64,000 bases of DNA, from contig JAMPFF010000008.1 of assembly GCA_023664605.1 (NCBI GenBank), positions 1-64,000 on the forward strand, in the 5' to 3' direction. Origin of the DNA: Clostridium sp. GTDB taxonomy: Bacteria; Bacillota; Clostridia; Lachnospirales; Lachnospiraceae. This document shows, in pieces, positions 1 to 8,400 of this stretch. The notes beneath the pieces were generated by a model. That model searched no databases, had not been told where the DNA came from, and saw only the letters and a program-made list of their open reading frames with translations. How positions within the stretch are numbered: the stretch's first letter is position 1; each line of letters begins with the position of its first letter. The translations under genes and the position numbers were made by a program.

Positions 1-164
1 CTGGTCTGAAAAACCGCCCTGAACATATAGTCGTTAGTCATGCCGTAGGGGATGGCACCGTGGGCGTTTTTAAGCAAATCATCTGAAAGTAAATCGCTTG
101 GAAGTAAAGCATTAGGATTGGAAACGAAAGCTGCATTTTTAAGATTTGTTGTTTTTTGATTCAT
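1..164 (-). CDS. PD-(D/E)XK nuclease family transposase-like protein, N-terminal part
   Basis: Only the first 55 or so codons lie in the window; the gene continues leftwards beyond base 1. The N terminus (MNQKTTN, then PYGMTNDYMFRAVFQT) is nearly the same as the complete paralogue at 36244-37254, which belongs to the PD-(D/E)XK transposase-associated (PF12784/Rpn-like) family. An AAAGGAG site ends 8 bases before the ATG at 164; an ATG at 170 is too close to it. About ten extra residues (around SDLLSDD) are inserted relative to the paralogue. The family acts on DNA or is domesticated from transposase-linked nucleases; the actual role here is unknown. Confidence 0.75.
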   Translation of the reverse strand, partial: MNQKTTNLKNAAFVSNPNALLPSDLLSDDLLKNAHGAIPYGMTNDYMFRAVFQT

Positions 165-310
165 AGACATGACTCCTTTGTGATGTAAGATAACAGAAAG
201 CGCATAAGCAGCTTTCCGCAGAATGAATTAGCCGAATGACCGAATATGAATTATTTATATCACATTTAAGAGAAAAACGCAATTATTTCTTTTGTAAAAT
301 TTTTCTTATG

Positions 311-345
311 TGCATAAAAAAGCGCAAGCTCTGCAGCTTGCGCTT
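311..345 (-). terminator. Leader terminator-like hairpin
   Basis: An 11-bp perfect stem (320-330 with 335-345, loop CTGC) is followed on the minus strand by a T run. It sits about 150 bases upstream of the minus-strand gene starting at 164. The same hairpin is present in the second copy, where no minus-strand gene lies upstream, so a leader/attenuator role is as likely as simple termination. It would also stop minus-strand transcripts coming from the sigma-28 promoter at 520-546. Confidence 0.6.
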
Positions 346-468
346 AAGTTCTCATCATGATTACAGCAATTTCCTATTATATAAAAAATGGGGAAACTGT
401 TTACGGATAGGCAGCATATAAAGTTTCACTATTTTTTGGATAGAAAAGCAAAACTATGGCATAATAAG

Positions 469-499
469 AATGCAACACTTTGTATAAAAATGTTGCATT
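469..499. repeat. Left inverted repeat of invertible segment
   Basis: A 31-bp sequence matching the reverse complement of 1247-1277 at 29 of 31 positions, including a 21-nt identical run. It is itself an imperfect palindrome (AATGCAAC ... GTTGCATT arms around a 15-nt core), as expected for a tyrosine recombinase crossover site. Confidence 0.85.
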
Positions 500-519
500 T
501 CTTTTTGTTTACACTTTAT

Positions 520-546
520 ATATCGGAGCCTTCTTTTAAAACTTTA
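520..546 (-). promoter_or_regulatory. Sigma-28 (SigD/FliA) flagellar promoter
   Basis: On the minus strand TAAAGTTT (-35, starting at 546) matches the FliA -35 consensus completely. After the TAAA core and 15 bases comes TCCGATAT at 527-520, differing from the Bacillus-type GCCGATAT at one base. It lies inside the invertible segment and reads out leftwards across the repeat at 469-499. Confidence 0.75.
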
Positions 547-602
547 GTCCTTTTTTCAATTTTTTTAAAATTTTTTAAATACGGAAAATGACGCGCTATT
601 TT

Positions 603-1184
603 CTATAATTGTATATGAAGATAGACATTATCCCTCTCATCCTGCTCGATACCAAGGTAACGCTGTGTTACCTGATACGAGGAATGGTTATAGATATCCA
701 TAAGCATAGCGGGTTGTGTTCCCTGCTTCCAGGCATGATAGCCAAATGTTTTTCGCAGGGAGTGACAGCCGATATGCTCATGTAAGCCGGAACCGGCAGC
801 CGCTTCTTTTACAATGCGGTAGGCTTGATAGCGTGACAACGGGAAGCCTTTATGTTTTCGGCTTTGAAATAAATAGTCGCTCATATGGGCGGGGGTGTTG
901 AACAAATAATAATCTTTTAAGGTGTTGCGTTCCGTCTGATTGATGGCAACAATCCGTTCTTTTCCGGTCTTTTGTTCCATAATGCTGATATGGCGGCGGA
1001 ATGTCTTTTTCTTTTCATCATATACATCATTCCATGTTAATGCCAGCAAATCGCCTATTCTGAACGCTGTGTTTAATCCCATAATAATCATCGTGTAATT
1101 ACGCGGGTTAGGTTTGGTTTTTAAATAGAAATCCTTAAAATCTTTTAATGCTTTTTTGTTCTTGATTGGATAGGTAACGCTCAT
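603..1184 (-). CDS. Tyrosine recombinase, FimB/FimE-like DNA invertase
   Basis: The 193-residue protein is a catalytic-domain-only tyrosine recombinase of FimB/FimE size. Catalytic residues are visible: R42 (AFRIGDLL), K72, H141-R144 (HSLRKT), H167 and the nucleophile Y176 (QRYLGI). It lacks the N-terminal core-binding domain of full-length integrases. An AAGGAG site lies 8 bases before the ATG. The gene is wholly enclosed by 31-bp inverted repeats, so it would flip with the segment it probably inverts. Its 5' end faces csrA in the present orientation. A simple integrase remnant is the alternative, but intact catalytic residues and flanking repeats favour an active invertase. Confidence 0.85.
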   Translation of the reverse strand: MSVTYPIKNKKALKDFKDFYLKTKPNPRNYTMIIMGLNTAFRIGDLLALTWNDVYDEKKKTFRRHISIMEQKTGKERIVAINQTERNTLKDYYLFNTPAHMSDYLFQSRKHKGFPLSRYQAYRIVKEAAAGSGLHEHIGCHSLRKTFGYHAWKQGTQPAMLMDIYNHSSYQVTQRYLGIEQDERDNVYLHIQL

Positions 1185-1246
1185 CTTCTTATCTCCTTTA
1201 CATTTAATTATAGTAATTATATAAATTTAACAACAATACATCCTGC

Positions 1247-1277
1247 AATGCAACATTTTTATACAAAAAGTTGCATT
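1247..1277. repeat. Right inverted repeat of invertible segment
   Basis: Reverse-complement partner of 469-499. Here the palindrome is longer: 13-bp perfect arms (1242-1254 and 1270-1282) flank a 15-nt core that is asymmetric and matches the left copy in inverted orientation. It ends 31 bases before the csrA start. Confidence 0.85.
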
Positions 1278-1313
1278 GCAGGGAGGCACTTAAAAAGGCA
1301 GGGAGGTTTTTGA

Positions 1314-1601
1314 ATGTTAAGACTGACAGTAAACACGGAAGAGTATCTACAGATTGGGGAGGACATTAAAATTGTTTTTCTCGGCGGCAGCAAAAATCAT
1401 ACACGGATTATGCTGGATTTGCCAAAGGAAGTGAATGTTATCCGAAGCAAAGTGATTGAAAAGACGGTAAGCGATTCGGATGATAAGAAAAATCTTCCGC
1501 ATTACTACGCAGAGCCGGAATTGCCGGAGAAGTACCGCAAAAAACGAGTGGTAACAAACGATTCGGCAAAAGAGAAGAAAAAGATGGTTGCAAAGGCATA
1601 A
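1314..1601 (+). CDS. csrA: Carbon storage regulator CsrA with C-terminal extension
   Basis: Residues 1-50 align with CsrA/RsmA: MLRLT at the start, IGEDIKIVFLGG, and the LDLPKEVNVIR stretch ending with conserved R44. CsrA dimers bind GGA motifs in mRNA hairpins and block translation; in Gram-positive bacteria the main target is flagellin mRNA. The usual basic pair at positions 6-7 is V-N here, and about 45 lysine-rich extra residues follow the core, both unusual. GGGAGG (1301-1306) is the ribosome site. No terminator separates it from flagellin, so the two are probably co-transcribed. The usual antagonist gene fliW is not in the window. Confidence 0.88.
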   Translation: MLRLTVNTEEYLQIGEDIKIVFLGGSKNHTRIMLDLPKEVNVIRSKVIEKTVSDSDDKKNLPHYYAEPELPEKYRKKRVVTNDSAKEKKKMVAKA

Positions 1602-1675
1602 CAGTGTATCAGTAAGGTAATAACCCGGAGTTATCCTGGGGGTTTCGGGATTATTATAAAAAACAAAAAATCAAA

Positions 1676-1714
1676 TGCCACAAACGGATTTGTGGCAGAC
1701 ACACAACAAGGAGG
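1676..1714 (+). promoter_or_regulatory. CsrA binding sites in flagellin leader
   Basis: A perfect 9-bp hairpin (1676-1684 with 1689-1697) displays CGGA in its loop, preceded by A, giving the CsrA loop consensus ANGGA. A second site, ACAAGGA, overlaps the Shine-Dalgarno AAGGAGG (1708-1714). This two-site layout is the one known for CsrA control of Bacillus flagellin mRNA. Confidence 0.7.
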
Positions 1715-1721
1715 TAATATT

Positions 1722-2552
1722 ATGGTAGTACAACACAACATTACAGCAGTAAACGCAAACAGACAGCTTGGTATAACAACCAAAACACAGGCAAAGTCCA
1801 CAGAGAAGTTATCATCCGGTTATAAAATCAACCGTGCAGCAGATGATGCAGCAGGCTTGGCGATTTCTGAAAAGATGAGACGTCAGGTTAGAGGTCTTAC
1901 ACAGGCATCCTTAAATGCACAGGACGGTATCTCATGTGTACAGACGGCAGAAGGTGCATTAACAGAAGTTCATGATATGTTACAGCGTATGAATGAACTT
2001 GCTGTTAAGGGTGAAACAGGTACATTGACAAGTACAGATAGGGATTATATCAAGAAAGAACTTGACCAGTTGATGGATGAAGTTGACCGCGTACAGAGTA
2101 CAACGACATTCAATGAAAAGAAATTGTTGGATGGAAAATTTGATGTACAGCTTCAGGTTGGAGCAGAGGCAGGTCAGCATATTCAGGTTAAAATTGATAA
2201 TATGGATTGTAGTTCATTAGGTATCACTGCTAAAATTGCTGCTGCAACCGGCACAGAAACAGCAGATTCCCAAGCATATGGAGATTTTAATAAGCTGGTA
2301 AAAGCTGCAATTCAGAAAGTTTCCGAACAGCGTGCAGACCTTGGTGCAGTTCAGAACAGACTGGAGCATACGGTAAATAACCTGGATAACATCGTTGAGA
2401 ACACCACAGCGGCAGAATCACAGATTCGTGATACGGACATTGCAACAGAGATGGTTAAATACGCTAACAACAATATCTTGCAGCAGGCAGGTACATCCAT
2501 GCTCACCCAGGCAAATCAGTCCAACCAGTTGGCGCTGTCATTACTCGGCTAA
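1722..2552 (+). CDS. Flagellin
   Basis: The 276-residue protein has the conserved N-terminal D0/D1 helices (MVVQHNITAVNANRQLG, then KLSSGYKINRAADDAAGLAISEKMR) and C-terminal D1/D0 helices (DTDIATEMVKYANNNILQQAG ending LSLLG), with only a short middle region, so it is a minimal flagellin lacking an exposed variable domain. It polymerises into the filament after export by the flagellar type III apparatus. ATG 1722 is chosen over GTG 1692 because AAGGAGG sits just before it and family proteins start at MVVQHN. It follows csrA and is probably translationally repressed by it. No other flagellar gene is in the window. Confidence 0.93.
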   Translation: MVVQHNITAVNANRQLGITTKTQAKSTEKLSSGYKINRAADDAAGLAISEKMRRQVRGLTQASLNAQDGISCVQTAEGALTEVHDMLQRMNELAVKGETGTLTSTDRDYIKKELDQLMDEVDRVQSTTTFNEKKLLDGKFDVQLQVGAEAGQHIQVKIDNMDCSSLGITAKIAAATGTETADSQAYGDFNKLVKAAIQKVSEQRADLGAVQNRLEHTVNNLDNIVENTTAAESQIRDTDIATEMVKYANNNILQQAGTSMLTQANQSNQLALSLLG

Positions 2553-2642
2553 TCAGGTATTCCGCCTCATATTTTGGTTAAGTAAGTGTACGAAATATTG
2601 CAATAAGAGTTTATTGCAAAGTGAAACGATTACCATAAGGCA

Positions 2643-2676
2643 GCCGCATTCCATTACGGGATGCGGTTGTTTTGTA
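2643..2676 (+). terminator. Flagellin terminator
   Basis: A GC-rich hairpin (CCGCATTCC with GGGATGCGG, one G-T pair) is followed by TTGTTTTG about 90 bases after the flagellin stop. Confidence 0.8.
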
Positions 2677-2719
2677 TACGAAAAACAAATAAAAAGTACA
2701 AATAATTTCCTAAAAGAAA

Positions 2720-2748
2720 TAGACTTTGTATGTAAAGTATGATATACT
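2720..2748 (+). promoter_or_regulatory. Promoter of small-peptide unit
   Basis: TAGACT, 17 bases, TATACT preceded by TGA (extended -10). Confidence 0.6.
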
Positions 2749-2789
2749 GTATCTGCTCAGTAATGGATAGTAGTAAGAAGTGGAGGCAA

Positions 2790-2876
2790 ATGTCAGATAA
2801 CGAAAAGCTTGATTTGGTCTTGGAAATGGTAGTAACTATTGACAAGAAAGTAGATACGCTCAACAAAAAGGTGTAA
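2790..2876 (+). CDS. 28-residue small protein, unknown
   Basis: A short reading frame (begins MSDNEKLDLVLEMVVTIDKK) with a GGAGG ribosome site, its own promoter and a terminator that overlaps its stop codon. The peptide is acidic/amphipathic with heptad-like spacing and resembles the first helix of small coiled-coil proteins of Clostridia, so it may be a shortened relative of them. The unit could instead work as a small RNA of about 150 nt. No function is claimed. Confidence 0.5.
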   Translation: MSDNEKLDLVLEMVVTIDKKVDTLNKKV

Positions 2877-2910
2877 AGTCTATTGCTTGATTAAGGCTTT
2901 ACACTTTTTT
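2871..2910 (+). terminator. Terminator overlapping small-peptide stop
   Basis: GTGTAAAG (2871-2878) pairs with CTTTACAC (2897-2904), followed by six Ts. Confidence 0.8.
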
Positions 2911-2943
2911 ACCATATAGGAAAAGTTAAAAGGAGGAAAACAG

Positions 2944-3636
2944 ATGCAGCAAGAGAATAAGGTTTTCCAATATCTGCTGTTTGATTTGGACGGCACATTG
3001 ACAGACCCTAAGATTGGTATTACAACATGTGTGCAGTATGCGCTGCGCCGGTTCGGGATAGAAGAACCGGACCCGGATAAACTGGAAGGCTTTATCGGAC
3101 CGCCGCTTTCGGACAGTTTCCCGGAATTTTATGGATTTGATGAAAAGCAGACAAAAGAGGCTATTCAAGTGTTCAGGGAGCGGTTCAGTACAATCGGGCT
3201 GTATGAAAACGAGATATATCCGGGGATAAAGGAAATGCTTGCCGGATTAAAAGCCGCAGGAAGAAAACTGGCGGTTGCCTCTTGTAAAGCGACGGTTTTT
3301 ATCACCAAAATATTAAAGCACTTCGAGATAGAGCAGTATTTTGGCGTGATTGCGGGAAGTGAGTTAGACGGTACCCGCTCCCGTAAGGAAGAAGTTATAG
3401 AAGAGGCGTTACGACAATTATGTCATGAGAATAAAAATGAAAATGACATAGCTGTCATGATAGGTGACAGGAAGTTTGATATACTGGGGGCGCAGGTTTT
3501 TGGGCTGGTGAGTGTGGGCGTTTCTTTCGGGTATGCACCGCCCGGCGAGCTGGAGGCAGCGAATGCGGATTATATAGTAGGAACGGTGGCGGAACTGGAG
3601 AAACTGTTGCTTACGAACGGACATGGAGGATTATGA
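2944..3636 (+). CDS. HAD-family phosphatase, phosphoglycolate phosphatase-like
   Basis: The 230-residue protein has HAD motif I DLDGTLTD (nucleophile D14, acid/base D16), a helical cap, a motif II Ser/Thr region (AVASCKAT), a Lys region near RKEE and motif IV GDRKFDILGA. This layout is typical of Gph/PGP-like cytosolic phosphatases acting on small phosphorylated metabolites; the substrate cannot be read from sequence. AGGAGG lies 8 bases before the ATG. Its stop overlaps the start of the CPBP protease by four bases, indicating translational coupling. Confidence 0.85.
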   Translation: MQQENKVFQYLLFDLDGTLTDPKIGITTCVQYALRRFGIEEPDPDKLEGFIGPPLSDSFPEFYGFDEKQTKEAIQVFRERFSTIGLYENEIYPGIKEMLAGLKAAGRKLAVASCKATVFITKILKHFEIEQYFGVIAGSELDGTRSRKEEVIEEALRQLCHENKNENDIAVMIGDRKFDILGAQVFGLVSVGVSFGYAPPGELEAANADYIVGTVAELEKLLLTNGHGGL

Positions 3637-4542: not shown

Positions 4543-4800
4543 ATGTCGAAATGGGATAAACTATTAACGCGTATTTGTACTTTATCAAAAGACCTCTGGT
4601 TTGATGAATTGCGTAAGGTAATGGAAAGCTATGGATATGAGATGAATGTACCAAAAGGAGGAAGTAGTCATTATACATTTAGAAAATCCGGGTGCCAGCC
4701 AATTACAATACCAAGGCATGAACCGATTAAAAAGATATATGTAGAGATGGTAAAGCAGGTTGTAGAAAGTGAGGTAAAAGATGATGAAAACATTGGATGA
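4543..4800 (+). CDS. hicA: HicA-family mRNA interferase toxin
   Basis: An 85-residue protein with the HicA double-stranded-RNA-binding-like fold: KVMESYGYEMNVPKGGSSHYTFRK contains the G-S-x-H-Y/F catalytic signature with H43, followed by TIPRHEP. HicA toxins cleave mRNA independently of ribosome type. The gene is first in the operon and its 3' end overlaps hicB by 20 bases. The protein is slightly longer than the usual 60-80 residues because of an N-terminal addition. Confidence 0.88.
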   Translation: MSKWDKLLTRICTLSKDLWFDELRKVMESYGYEMNVPKGGSSHYTFRKSGCQPITIPRHEPIKKIYVEMVKQVVESEVKDDENIG

Positions 4801-5146
4801 TTATATGGCAATGTCCTATCGCATGGAGATTGTGGAAGATAAGGATGAGGGTGGTTTTGTGGTTTCTTATCCTGACCTTCCGGGATGTATTACCTGTGGT
4901 GAGACGGTGGAATCTGCGGTAGAGAATGCACTGGATGCAAAGCGGGCATGGATTGAAGCGGCGTTGGAAGATGGTGTAGAGATTCAGGAACCGGATAATT
5001 TAGAGGATTATTCGGGGCAGTTTAAATTGCGGATACCTCGTAGCCTGCATCGGTTATTGGCAGAGCATTCTAAGAGAGAGGGTATTAGCATGAATCAATA
5101 TTGTGTGTATCTCCTTTCCAGAAATGATGCTATGTATTCAAACTAA
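4781..5146 (+). CDS. hicB: HicB-family antitoxin
   Basis: A 121-residue protein with the HicB N-terminal RNase H-like fold (YRMEIVEDKDEGGFVVSYPDLPGCITCGET, ending with DAKRAWIEAALEDG) and a C-terminal ribbon-helix-helix segment (GQFKLRIPRSLHRLLAEHSKREGISMNQY). It should bind HicA and repress the operon promoter. Start is ATG 4781 or 4784; either leaves it overlapping hicA, the usual coupling in such pairs. Confidence 0.88.
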   Translation: MMKTLDDYMAMSYRMEIVEDKDEGGFVVSYPDLPGCITCGETVESAVENALDAKRAWIEAALEDGVEIQEPDNLEDYSGQFKLRIPRSLHRLLAEHSKREGISMNQYCVYLLSRNDAMYSN

Positions 5147-5430: not shown

Positions 5431-8400
5431 ATGTTTGATGTAAAAATGACTGTTCCAGAAGCGCCGCTTCACAGAATGGAGTTTGAGCATGATAACTGCG
5501 GTATTGGCGCGTGCGTCAATATCAAAGGGCAAAAAAGCCGCACGACAGTGGAGAATGCGCTGAAGATTGTGGAAAATCTGGAACATAGGGCAGGCAAGGA
5601 CGCGGAGGGAAAAACCGGCGACGGTGTCGGCATTCTGACGCAGATACCTCATAAGTTCATGCTGAAAGTGACGAAAGAAGCAGGCATTCAAATCGGAAAA
5701 GAAAGAGAGTACGGCGTCGGTATGTTTTTCTTTCCGCAGGATGAGCTGCAACGCAATCAGGCAAAGAAGATGTTTGAGATTATTGTGGAAAAAGAGGGAC
5801 TGGAATTTTTAGGCTGGCGCAGCGTGCCGACGAATCCGTCCGTCCTTGGACATAAAGCAGTGGAGTGTATGCCCTGCATTATGCAGGCATTTGTAAAAAA
5901 ACCGGCGGGGATTGCCTGCGGGCTGGAATTTGACAGGAAGCTCTATATTTTGAGAAGAACGTTCGAGCAGTCAACGGATGTGACATATGTTGTTTGTTTA
6001 TCCAGCAGAACCATTGTTTATAAAGGAATGTTTTTAGTCGGTCAGCTTCGTACGTTTTTCCCGGATTTGCAGGACGGCGATTATGAATCGGCTATTGCCA
6101 TTGTGCATTCCCGTTTTTCCACGAATACCAATCCGAGCTGGGAGCGTGCGCATCCGAACCGGTTTATCGTACATAACGGTGAAATCAATACTATCCGCGG
6201 CAATGCGGACAAGATGCTTGCCAGGGAAGAGACGATGGAATCCGAACATCTGGCGGGACAGCTCCATAAGGTGCTTCCGGCAATCAGCGCATCCGGTTCT
6301 GATTCAGCGATGCTTGACAATACGCTGGAATTTCTTGTTATGAGCGGTATGCCGCTTCCGCTGGCGGTTATGATTACCATTCCGGAGCCGTGGGAGAATA
6401 ATAAGACGATGTCGCAGAAAAAGAAAGACTTTTATCAGTATTATGCGACGATGATGGAGCCATGGGACGGTCCTGCGTCCATTCTTTTTTCCGACGGCGA
6501 TATTATGGGGGCAGTGCTTGACCGGAACGGTCTACGCCCGTCAAGATATATGATTACGGATGACGATACGCTGATTCTTTCTTCGGAAGTGGGCGTACTG
6601 GATATTGACCCGACCAAAATTGTCATAAAAGAGAGACTGCATCCGGGAAAAATGCTTTTAGTCGATATGGTTGAGGGCAGGGTGATTGATGATGACGAGT
6701 TAAAAGAAAAATACGCTTCGGCGCAGCCTTACGGCGAATGGCTTGACAATAATCTGGTGACGTTAAAGGAATTGAAGATTCCGAACCAGAGAGTGCCGGA
6801 ATTTACCTATGAGGAAAGACAGCGGATGCAGAAAGCGTTTGGCTATACATACGAGGAGTTAAAGAGCAGCATCCTTCCGATGGCGAAAAACGGCGCGGAG
6901 GCGATTGCGGCGATGGGCGTGGATACGCCGCTGCCGGTGCTGTCTAAGGCGCACCATCCGCTTTTCCACTATTTCAAACAGTTGTTCGCGCAGGTGACGA
7001 ATCCGCCGATTGACGCTATCAGAGAGGAAGTGGTTACGTCTACGACGGTTTATCTTGGCATGGACGGTAACTTATTGGAGGAAAAGCCGGAAAACTGCAA
7101 TATGTTAAGGGTGCATAATCCGATTTTGACAAGTACGGATTTATTGAAAATTAAAAATATGAAGTCGGAGGGCTTTAAGGTGGAAGTCGTACCGATTACT
7201 TATTATAAGAATACCAGTCTGGAAAAAGCGATTGACAGGCTGTTTGTGGAAGTGGACAGGGCATTCCGCGGCGGCGTCAATATTTTAATCCTTTCCGACA
7301 GGGGCGTGGACGAAAACAGGGTGGCGATTCCCTCGCTCTTAGCGGTATCGGCATTGCAGCAGCACCTTGTCAATACGAAAAAAAGAACGAGCGTGGCAAT
7401 CGTCCTGGAATCGGCGGAACCGCGCGAAGTACATCATTTTGCGACGCTGCTTGGTTTTGGTGCTTCCGCTATCAACCCGTATCTGGCGCAGGAAAGCATC
7501 AGGGAATTGATTGATAATCATATGCTGGATAAGGATTATTATGCGGCGGTCAACGATTATAATGACGCCATATTGCATGGCATCGTAAAAATTGCTTCTA
7601 AAATGGGTATCTCCACGATACAGTCTTATCAGGGCTCCAAGATTTTTGAAGCAATCGGCATTGATAAAGAAGTCATTAATAAGTATTTTACCAATACGGT
7701 ATGCCGCGTCGGCGGAATTACTTTGAAAGATATTGAAAAGGAAGTCGATACGCTGCATTCCATGGCTTTTGACCCGCTCGGTCTATCGACGGATTTAGCG
7801 CTGGATAATCCCGGACATCACCAGATGCGGAGCGGTGCGGACGAGCATCTTTATAATCCGGAGACGATTCATTTATTACAGGAGTCAACCAAGCGCGGTG
7901 ATTATGAAATGTTCAAACAATATACCCAAGCGGTCAATAAAGAGGACAGTATTAAGACGCTGCGTGGTTTAATGGACTTTAATTATGCCAAGAAACCCGT
8001 GCCGATTGAGGAAGTGGAGAGTGTTGACAGTATTGTCACAAGATTCAAAACAGGCGCGATGTCCTATGGTTCTATTTCCAAAGAGGCGCATGAGACAATG
8101 GCAATCGCCATGAACAGGCTGCACGGAAAATCAAACTCCGGCGAGGGCGGCGAAGATAAAGACAGGCTGACAATCGGAGCGGACGGACTGGACAGATGTT
8201 CCGCGATTAAGCAGGTGGCAAGCGGACGTTTCGGCGTTACAAGCGAGTATTTAAACAGTGCGAAAGAGATTCAGATTAAAATGGCGCAGGGCGCGAAACC
8301 GGGAGAGGGAGGACATCTGCCGGGCGGCAAAGTCTATCCTTGGATTGCCAAGACAAGGCATTCGACGGCGGGCGTAAGCTTAATCTCGCCGCCGCCGCAC

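Follow-up and report, generated by a model that had tools for sequence, protein, structure and literature searches.

Gene content and repeats of the recombinase segment

The window, a stretch of 64 kb, is the initial part of contig C77 of a 3.59-Mb genome assembled in 78 contigs. Near its left end a small recombinase gene is followed by a csrA-flagellin unit, and the features of this locus are as follows.

320..345, minus strand: terminator-like hairpin with T-run beyond the segment, a possible second stop for leftward transcripts
469..499, no strand: left inverted repeat, on the dead-end side, palindromic by itself
520..546, minus strand: sigma-28-type promoter, TAAAGTTT-N11-TCCGATAT, facing leftward, the state termed OFF
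603..1184, minus strand: tyrosine recombinase of 193 aa (Pfam Phage_integrase), within the segment
1247..1277, no strand: right inverted repeat, on the csrA side, also palindromic
1314..1601, plus strand: CsrA paralogue of 95 aa with a C-terminal extension
1612..1661, plus strand: structured RNA (model R1), a 13-pair covarying hairpin in the gap between csrA and flagellin
1676..1697, plus strand: GGA-loop hairpin of the CsrA-site type in the flagellin leader, 24 nt upstream of the start codon
1722..2552, plus strand: flagellin of 276 aa

A preceding sequence-only reading described this locus as an invertible sigma-28 promoter caught in the OFF orientation, and its description of the segment agrees with the repeat comparison: the recombinase is enclosed by inverted repeats of 31 nt (469-499 and 1247-1277), identical at 29/31 positions and with 747 nt separating the arms, and the promoter pointing out of the left end (520-546, minus strand) carries 15/16 letters of the sigma-28 consensus in hexamers spaced by N11. 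The segment on C77 therefore has the layout of a promoter inversion, with inverted repeats around a promoter that adjoins the gene to be regulated. Upon inversion, in which each position x becomes 1746-x, the -35 would fall at 1200-1207 and the -10 at 1219-1226; a start near 1233 is then expected, which corrects the earlier estimate of 1205. Both targets had been placed 40-90 bases beyond the right repeat; this is roughly right for csrA (36 bases) and wrong for flagellin, which begins 444 bases from the repeat. An alternative flagellin promoter at 1280-1722, named by the same reading as an observation that would speak against the switch, was looked for and none stands out: the best sigma-28-type match in 1278-1721 has 10/16 letters on either strand, and a sigma-70 scan of 1280-1722 gave two weak plus-strand matches (9/12), one within csrA and one at 1696-1723 over the start codon, sigma-70-like sites in the scanned region numbering 12 versus 8.3 (sd 2.4) in shuffles. 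A promoter of a type other than sigma-28 or sigma-70 could still drive csrA-flagellin.

The recombinase matches Pfam Phage_integrase with an E of 1.5e-25. Residues R42, K75, H141, R144, H167 and Y176 are invariant among 21 aligned sequences and align with their counterparts in the XerC-like structure 4a8e, so that the complete catalytic set claimed earlier is indeed present. The label FimB-like, on the other hand, holds for size and type and not for subfamily membership, because the protein scores 39.7 and 50.9 bits with PRK09870 and PRK09871, which we take to represent FimE and FimB, far under their curated cut-offs of 221 and 222. The window recombinase was not found in viral contigs, among which an alignment search returned 69 relatives with identities of up to 47%. 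The enzyme would act on its own segment.

A second cassette with the same gene order, also OFF, lies on contig C44. Its recombinase is 63% identical to that of the window, its repeats are identical at 23/24 positions, its promoter is likewise TAAAGTTT-N11-TCCGATAT, and the CsrA paralogue encoded there is accompanied by a longer flagellin. With a cut-off of E 0.001, the genome yields eight tyrosine recombinase matches. One related enzyme (45% identity) is encoded on contig C22 (147279-147854; loci L003 and L102) within repeats identical at 26/26 positions; a sigma-28 site was sought in that segment and none was found, and the neighboring genes resemble, by eye, a sugar-nucleotide cluster, possibly pointing to a surface-glycan switch. 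Solo recombination sites (GCAAC-N13-16-GTTGC) were searched for elsewhere in the genome and occur at 14 places, none of which, beyond the four repeat arms, has an A/T-rich core as judged by eye. A further contig bearing the inverted junction was sought and not found, 495-602 being matched by C77 and the C44 cassette alone. Canonical CsrA and FliW genes are adjacent on contig C3, and a FliA-type sigma factor is encoded on C13. Within the window, two small neighboring ORFs at 4543-5146 may be a HicA/HicB-like toxin-antitoxin pair, judging from their translations, and positions 1-171 (minus strand) hold the 5' part of a gene that continues past the contig edge and may encode an Rpn/transposase-like nuclease.

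Recurrence and orientation of the cassette among relatives

In the genus, 76/77 genomes match the recombinase to some degree, often weakly, and 56 regions were retrieved for the strongest matches. In 37/77 genomes the recombinase has csrA or flagellin as a neighbor at one or more loci (28 with one, 7 with two and 2 with three), a count that takes in loci where repeats were not found. A family-wide draw gave matches at E 1e-30 in 36/397 genomes (34 of 334 genera), and an order-level search at the same threshold detected the recombinase family in 74/392 genomes, the 27 order-level loci (L306-L332) being checked for csrA and flagellin by blastp alone. The named relatives with this enzyme are for the most part gut Lachnospiraceae that have not been cultured; cultured strains with the layout include Petralouisia muris NM01_1-7b, Lachnospiraceae GAM79, strains 1xD42-87, 0.1xD8-71 and 1xD8-48, and Eubacterium xylanophilum ATCC 35991. 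The genus and family loci, together with 80 named loci kept of 573, make up 118 distinct recombinase loci, after removal of 43 duplicates and of matches below 120 bits or 480 nt (including L104, L105 and L106). Since these loci share ancestry, the counts given below do not represent independent events.

When the 118 loci are sorted by the direction of the promoter relative to csrA or flagellin, 80 are OFF, two are ON and two are two-way, with a flagellin at either side; L085, L088, L150 and L165 came into this sorting under a looser repeat rule. Among the other 34, which lack a part, one has repeats and no promoter scoring at least 12 (L213), 11 without repeats found still have csrA or flagellin beside the recombinase, and 22 are without csrA or flagellin within 0.9 kb, of which 14 have neither repeats nor promoter, seven have repeats without a promoter and one, at a contig edge, has both (L205). 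The proposal of an invertible sigma-28 promoter controlling csrA-flagellin is accordingly supported, its layout recurring in the second copy and across many relatives at the species level, with OFF as the near-constant state and ON seen twice. That the repeats merely happen to flank a prophage-type integrase next to an ordinary flagellin operon is a negligible prospect, common as tyrosine recombinases are (with the eight matches in this genome), being contradicted by dozens of loci that share the repeats, the placement of the promoter, the T-run and the RNA elements.

The promoter itself was compared with 1600 shuffled segments derived from 80 loci, of which 72/1600 reach a score of 12 and 0/1600 a score of 15, while 80/81 real segments beside csrA/flagellin, all with repeats, score at least 12; this difference is partly one of selection, because the first scan demanded C-G-A-type letters in the -10 and the score-12 cut-off also defined complete loci. 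Upon rescoring of the same chosen loci without imposed letters, the stretch from the recombinase stop codon to the repeat has a best score of 12-16 in 80/80 OFF or ON loci (80 of the 82, two with the promoter at the opposite side of the recombinase being excluded), versus 9-12 in the stretches from the csrA-side repeat to flagellin (n=79). In L218 and L220, both OFF, the promoter lies at the other side of the recombinase. Across 76 sites with a spacer of 11, no variation is seen at T1 or at the C, G and A of the -10; the spacer letters vary.

In the OFF state the window promoter faces terminator-like sites at 499-469 and 345-320, the former being the left repeat itself, which, read leftward, forms 13 pairs with the tail CTTATTATGC; terminator-like sites in 1-2700 number seven, compared with 2.3 (sd 1.7) in shuffles. 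A T-run, defined as at least six T among the first 12 bases past the repeat, is present at the dead end in 72/81 loci and on the csrA side in 2/82. The mean predicted hairpin energy is -15.6 kcal/mol for the dead end, compared with -9.3 when the ON junction is computed; the OFF hairpin has the advantage by more than 0.5 in 72/78 loci, is within 0.5 in two and is less stable in four. The dead-end repeat with its outer T-run thus looks, in these predictions, like a terminator. In both ON loci the T-run is also found on the flank distal to csrA, as expected if the segment alone moves.

The ON loci are L088 and L140, the latter from a goat rectum MAG, and with them the second orientation, looked for among relatives, is seen in comparisons between species and not within one strain. 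For the congeners L085 (OFF) and L088 (ON), the csrA flanks run in the same direction (L085 4639-4921 matching L088 4553-4835 at 78% identity), and the stretch from repeat to repeat of L085 (4942-5698) aligns with L088 5633-4853 on the opposite strand at 75%. Likeness of the dead-end flanks is limited to the repeat and a T-rich stretch, and collinearity therefore covers the csrA flank alone.

Could the element instead be a fossil, a segment once invertible and now locked, leaving csrA-flagellin silent or driven from elsewhere? With ON as rare as 2/82, segments could be mostly locked, and 80/82 one-sided loci are OFF. In one genome (G042; L104 and L362) the recombinase frame is interrupted while repeats, OFF promoter, csrA and flagellin are retained, and this cassette is probably locked. 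As a general account, however, this is very improbable, given catalytic residues invariant in 21 recombinases, a promoter, a T-run and two RNA hairpins that recur across diverged loci, and the existence of ON forms.

The two-way loci are L196, from a MAG with an inverted duplication, and L197, from Eubacterium xylanophilum ATCC 35991. In the latter (5500-7400), a single promoter in the recombinase segment is flanked by two flagellin genes that resemble each other and are divergently oriented; csrA was not found beside the segment, and the arrangement looks like an either/or flagellin switch. Degenerate sequences resembling recombination sites were also noted by eye upstream of second, tandem csrA-flagellin units (L082:3180-3510, L085:3150-3530 and L088:2990-3330), at which larger rearrangements are conceivable. 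At L336 (1881-1907; G001:C39), a csrA-flagellin stretch stops two bases past a sequence of the recombination-site type, at an apparent contig end, which fits an assembler meeting two continuations, other causes being possible as well.

RNA elements and the CsrA paralogue

The hairpin between csrA and flagellin is supported by covariation, 11/13 pairs being doubly changed and 95.5% of cells paired, values that 0/500 shuffles reach. The underlying set of 46 sequences comes from 50 of 89 hits to a regular expression, after two were judged false and duplicates merged; because the expression fixed the loop letters (TCC, one of C/T/A, one of A/G, GG), conservation of the loop is partly a product of choice, and pairing is unaffected. 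The resulting model R1, with 150 of 1103 first-look candidates scored, finds two sites at E up to 1 in this genome, both at the cassettes (1612-1661 and C44:46880-46929). In congeners, 54 matches are distributed across 38/77 genomes, namely the 37 cassette genomes and G042, and for 47/54 a recombinase is located no more than 1.2 kb away. Among the remaining seven, the five inspected, at L336, at L348 (where the csrA match is short only) and in the tandem arrays L082, L085 and L088, sit between csrA and flagellin. R1 is not universal, since 16 of 46 further cassette or related loci match at E up to 0.1. A search of Rfam with window positions 1-3000 gave 13 matches up to E 10, all under gathering scores; R1 is a candidate new RNA family.

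Closer to the flagellin gene, a GGA is located 26-44 bases upstream of the start codon in 91/98 leaders. For 81 distinct stretches, picked by the position of the GGA and not by pairing, 82.8% of cells in the hairpin are paired, as against 65.9% when shuffled and 34-46% when slid, and doubly changed cells number 135 versus 51.5; the eight pairs with double change are within the range of shuffles (mean 6.8; 79/500 as high). The CsrA paralogue of the window scores 55.4 bits with Pfam CsrA (cut-off 27) and has R44, a residue that matters for RNA binding in CsrA, and so belongs to this family, scoring 33.7 and 30.6 bits with two NCBIfam equivalog models, under their cut-offs of 73 and 70.1. All 82 cassette copies keep R44, G24 and P37, and the C-terminal extension has Y64 in 75/82 and K77 in 73/82. 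The cassette CsrA probably binds the GGA hairpin and limits translation of the cassette flagellin.

In Salmonella, FljA acts on another flagellin, and the segment might likewise invert with its main output being the CsrA paralogue acting on other mRNAs, for instance those of other flagellins. In favor of this are the position of csrA as first gene, the invariance of R44, G24 and P37 with a shared extension of its own, and a locus of Roseburia faecis (L178) with recombinase, promoter and a csrA-like gene, for which flagellin was not found within 6 kb. We nevertheless consider it unlikely, the GGA hairpin being present in most cassette flagellin leaders and the two flagellin genes on contig C23 having sigma-28-type sites of their own (spacer 12). 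Neither these two genes nor the flagellin on C6 has a GGA hairpin of at least five pairs within 150 nt upstream, and FljA-like repression of other flagellins is for this reason not favored. As contig C23 has no recombinase match either, the cell may hold flagellin in both states of the segment.

Probable promoter inversion and known flagellar switches

By far the best reading of the architecture and its conservation is promoter inversion, and the locus is very probably a self-contained cassette for flagellin phase variation. Comparison supports it through the shared architecture, both orientations between species, a T-run on one flank and covarying RNAs. The recombinase would use the two palindromic sites to invert the segment that encodes it. 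In OFF, the assembled state, the sigma-28 promoter would fire outward into a terminator formed by the dead-end repeat and the adjacent T-run, leaving csrA-flagellin without a recognised sigma-28 promoter. In ON, the promoter would adjoin the csrA-side repeat, the outer half of which forms a weaker hairpin lacking a T-run, and transcription is for these reasons expected to read through into csrA, the structured RNA and flagellin. Cells could in this way switch alternative flagellins on and off.

The closest parallel is Salmonella hin-fljBA, in which a recombinase gene and a flagellin promoter are likewise inside the segment, with flagellin and an RNA-level regulator outside (PMC11868660). The window cassette has this distribution of recombinase and sigma-28 promoter inside and flagellin outside, but its enzyme is a tyrosine recombinase (Phage_integrase) and Hin a serine recombinase. 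It also differs in its regulator, a CsrA paralogue encoded ahead of flagellin that probably acts on this very transcript, in its terminator-like dead end, and in the number of cassettes, up to three per genome. The cassette is best read as convergent with hin-fljBA and assembled from unrelated parts, a tyrosine recombinase serving in place of Hin and a CsrA paralogue as the regulator.

In Clostridioides difficile, also a gut Firmicute, the tyrosine recombinase RecV inverts flagella-controlling DNA, Cdi4, as well as the cwpV switch; Cdi4 is 154 bp without a promoter, lies upstream of the early flgB operon and acts after transcription initiation (PMC5386303), whereas the segment described here carries a promoter and its own recombinase and adjoins single flagellin genes. 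A Providencia stuartii segment of 844 bp near a surface-structure locus also encloses its recombinase, but serves fimbriae, and the section describing it mentions neither flagellin nor csrA (PMC5903667). The cassettes described here can also be compared with two further systems. At E. coli fimS, FimB and FimE, tyrosine recombinases of about 200 aa, invert a promoter for a surface structure; there the recombinases are outside the segment, the structure is fimbriae and a sigma-28 promoter is lacking. Bacillus subtilis has a CsrA site upstream of the ribosome-binding site of flagellin in its CsrA-FliW-hag system, to which the cassettes add an extra CsrA paralogue each, besides the canonical CsrA/FliW pair.

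A search by titles and abstract openings, with preprints and most subscription journals outside its scope, found no published account of a flagellin promoter that inverts in Lachnospiraceae; inverton surveys (those of Jiang in 2019 and Chanin in 2024) may include individual loci. Flagellins of Lachnospiraceae are host immune antigens. If many small self-flipping cassettes make them phase-variable, each population would contain a mixture of flagellin types, and the orientation of segments seen in metagenomes could serve as a proxy for flagellin expression. The cassette would moreover represent an independent evolutionary invention of the Salmonella flagellar switch with another recombinase class, and the analysis also yields an RNA element that matches no Rfam family at gathering score. 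More tentatively, and with the odds somewhat against it, flagellin choice might be widespread in gut Lachnospiraceae and organised as one to three independent cassettes per genome (in this genome alongside flagellin genes that have sigma-28-type sites of their own), two-way promoters (L197) and a shufflon of tandem units (L082, L085 and L088), a candidate new RNA element tuning each cassette; in such a shufflon, a segment inverting between the dead-end site and a more distant, degenerate site could pick among several flagellins.
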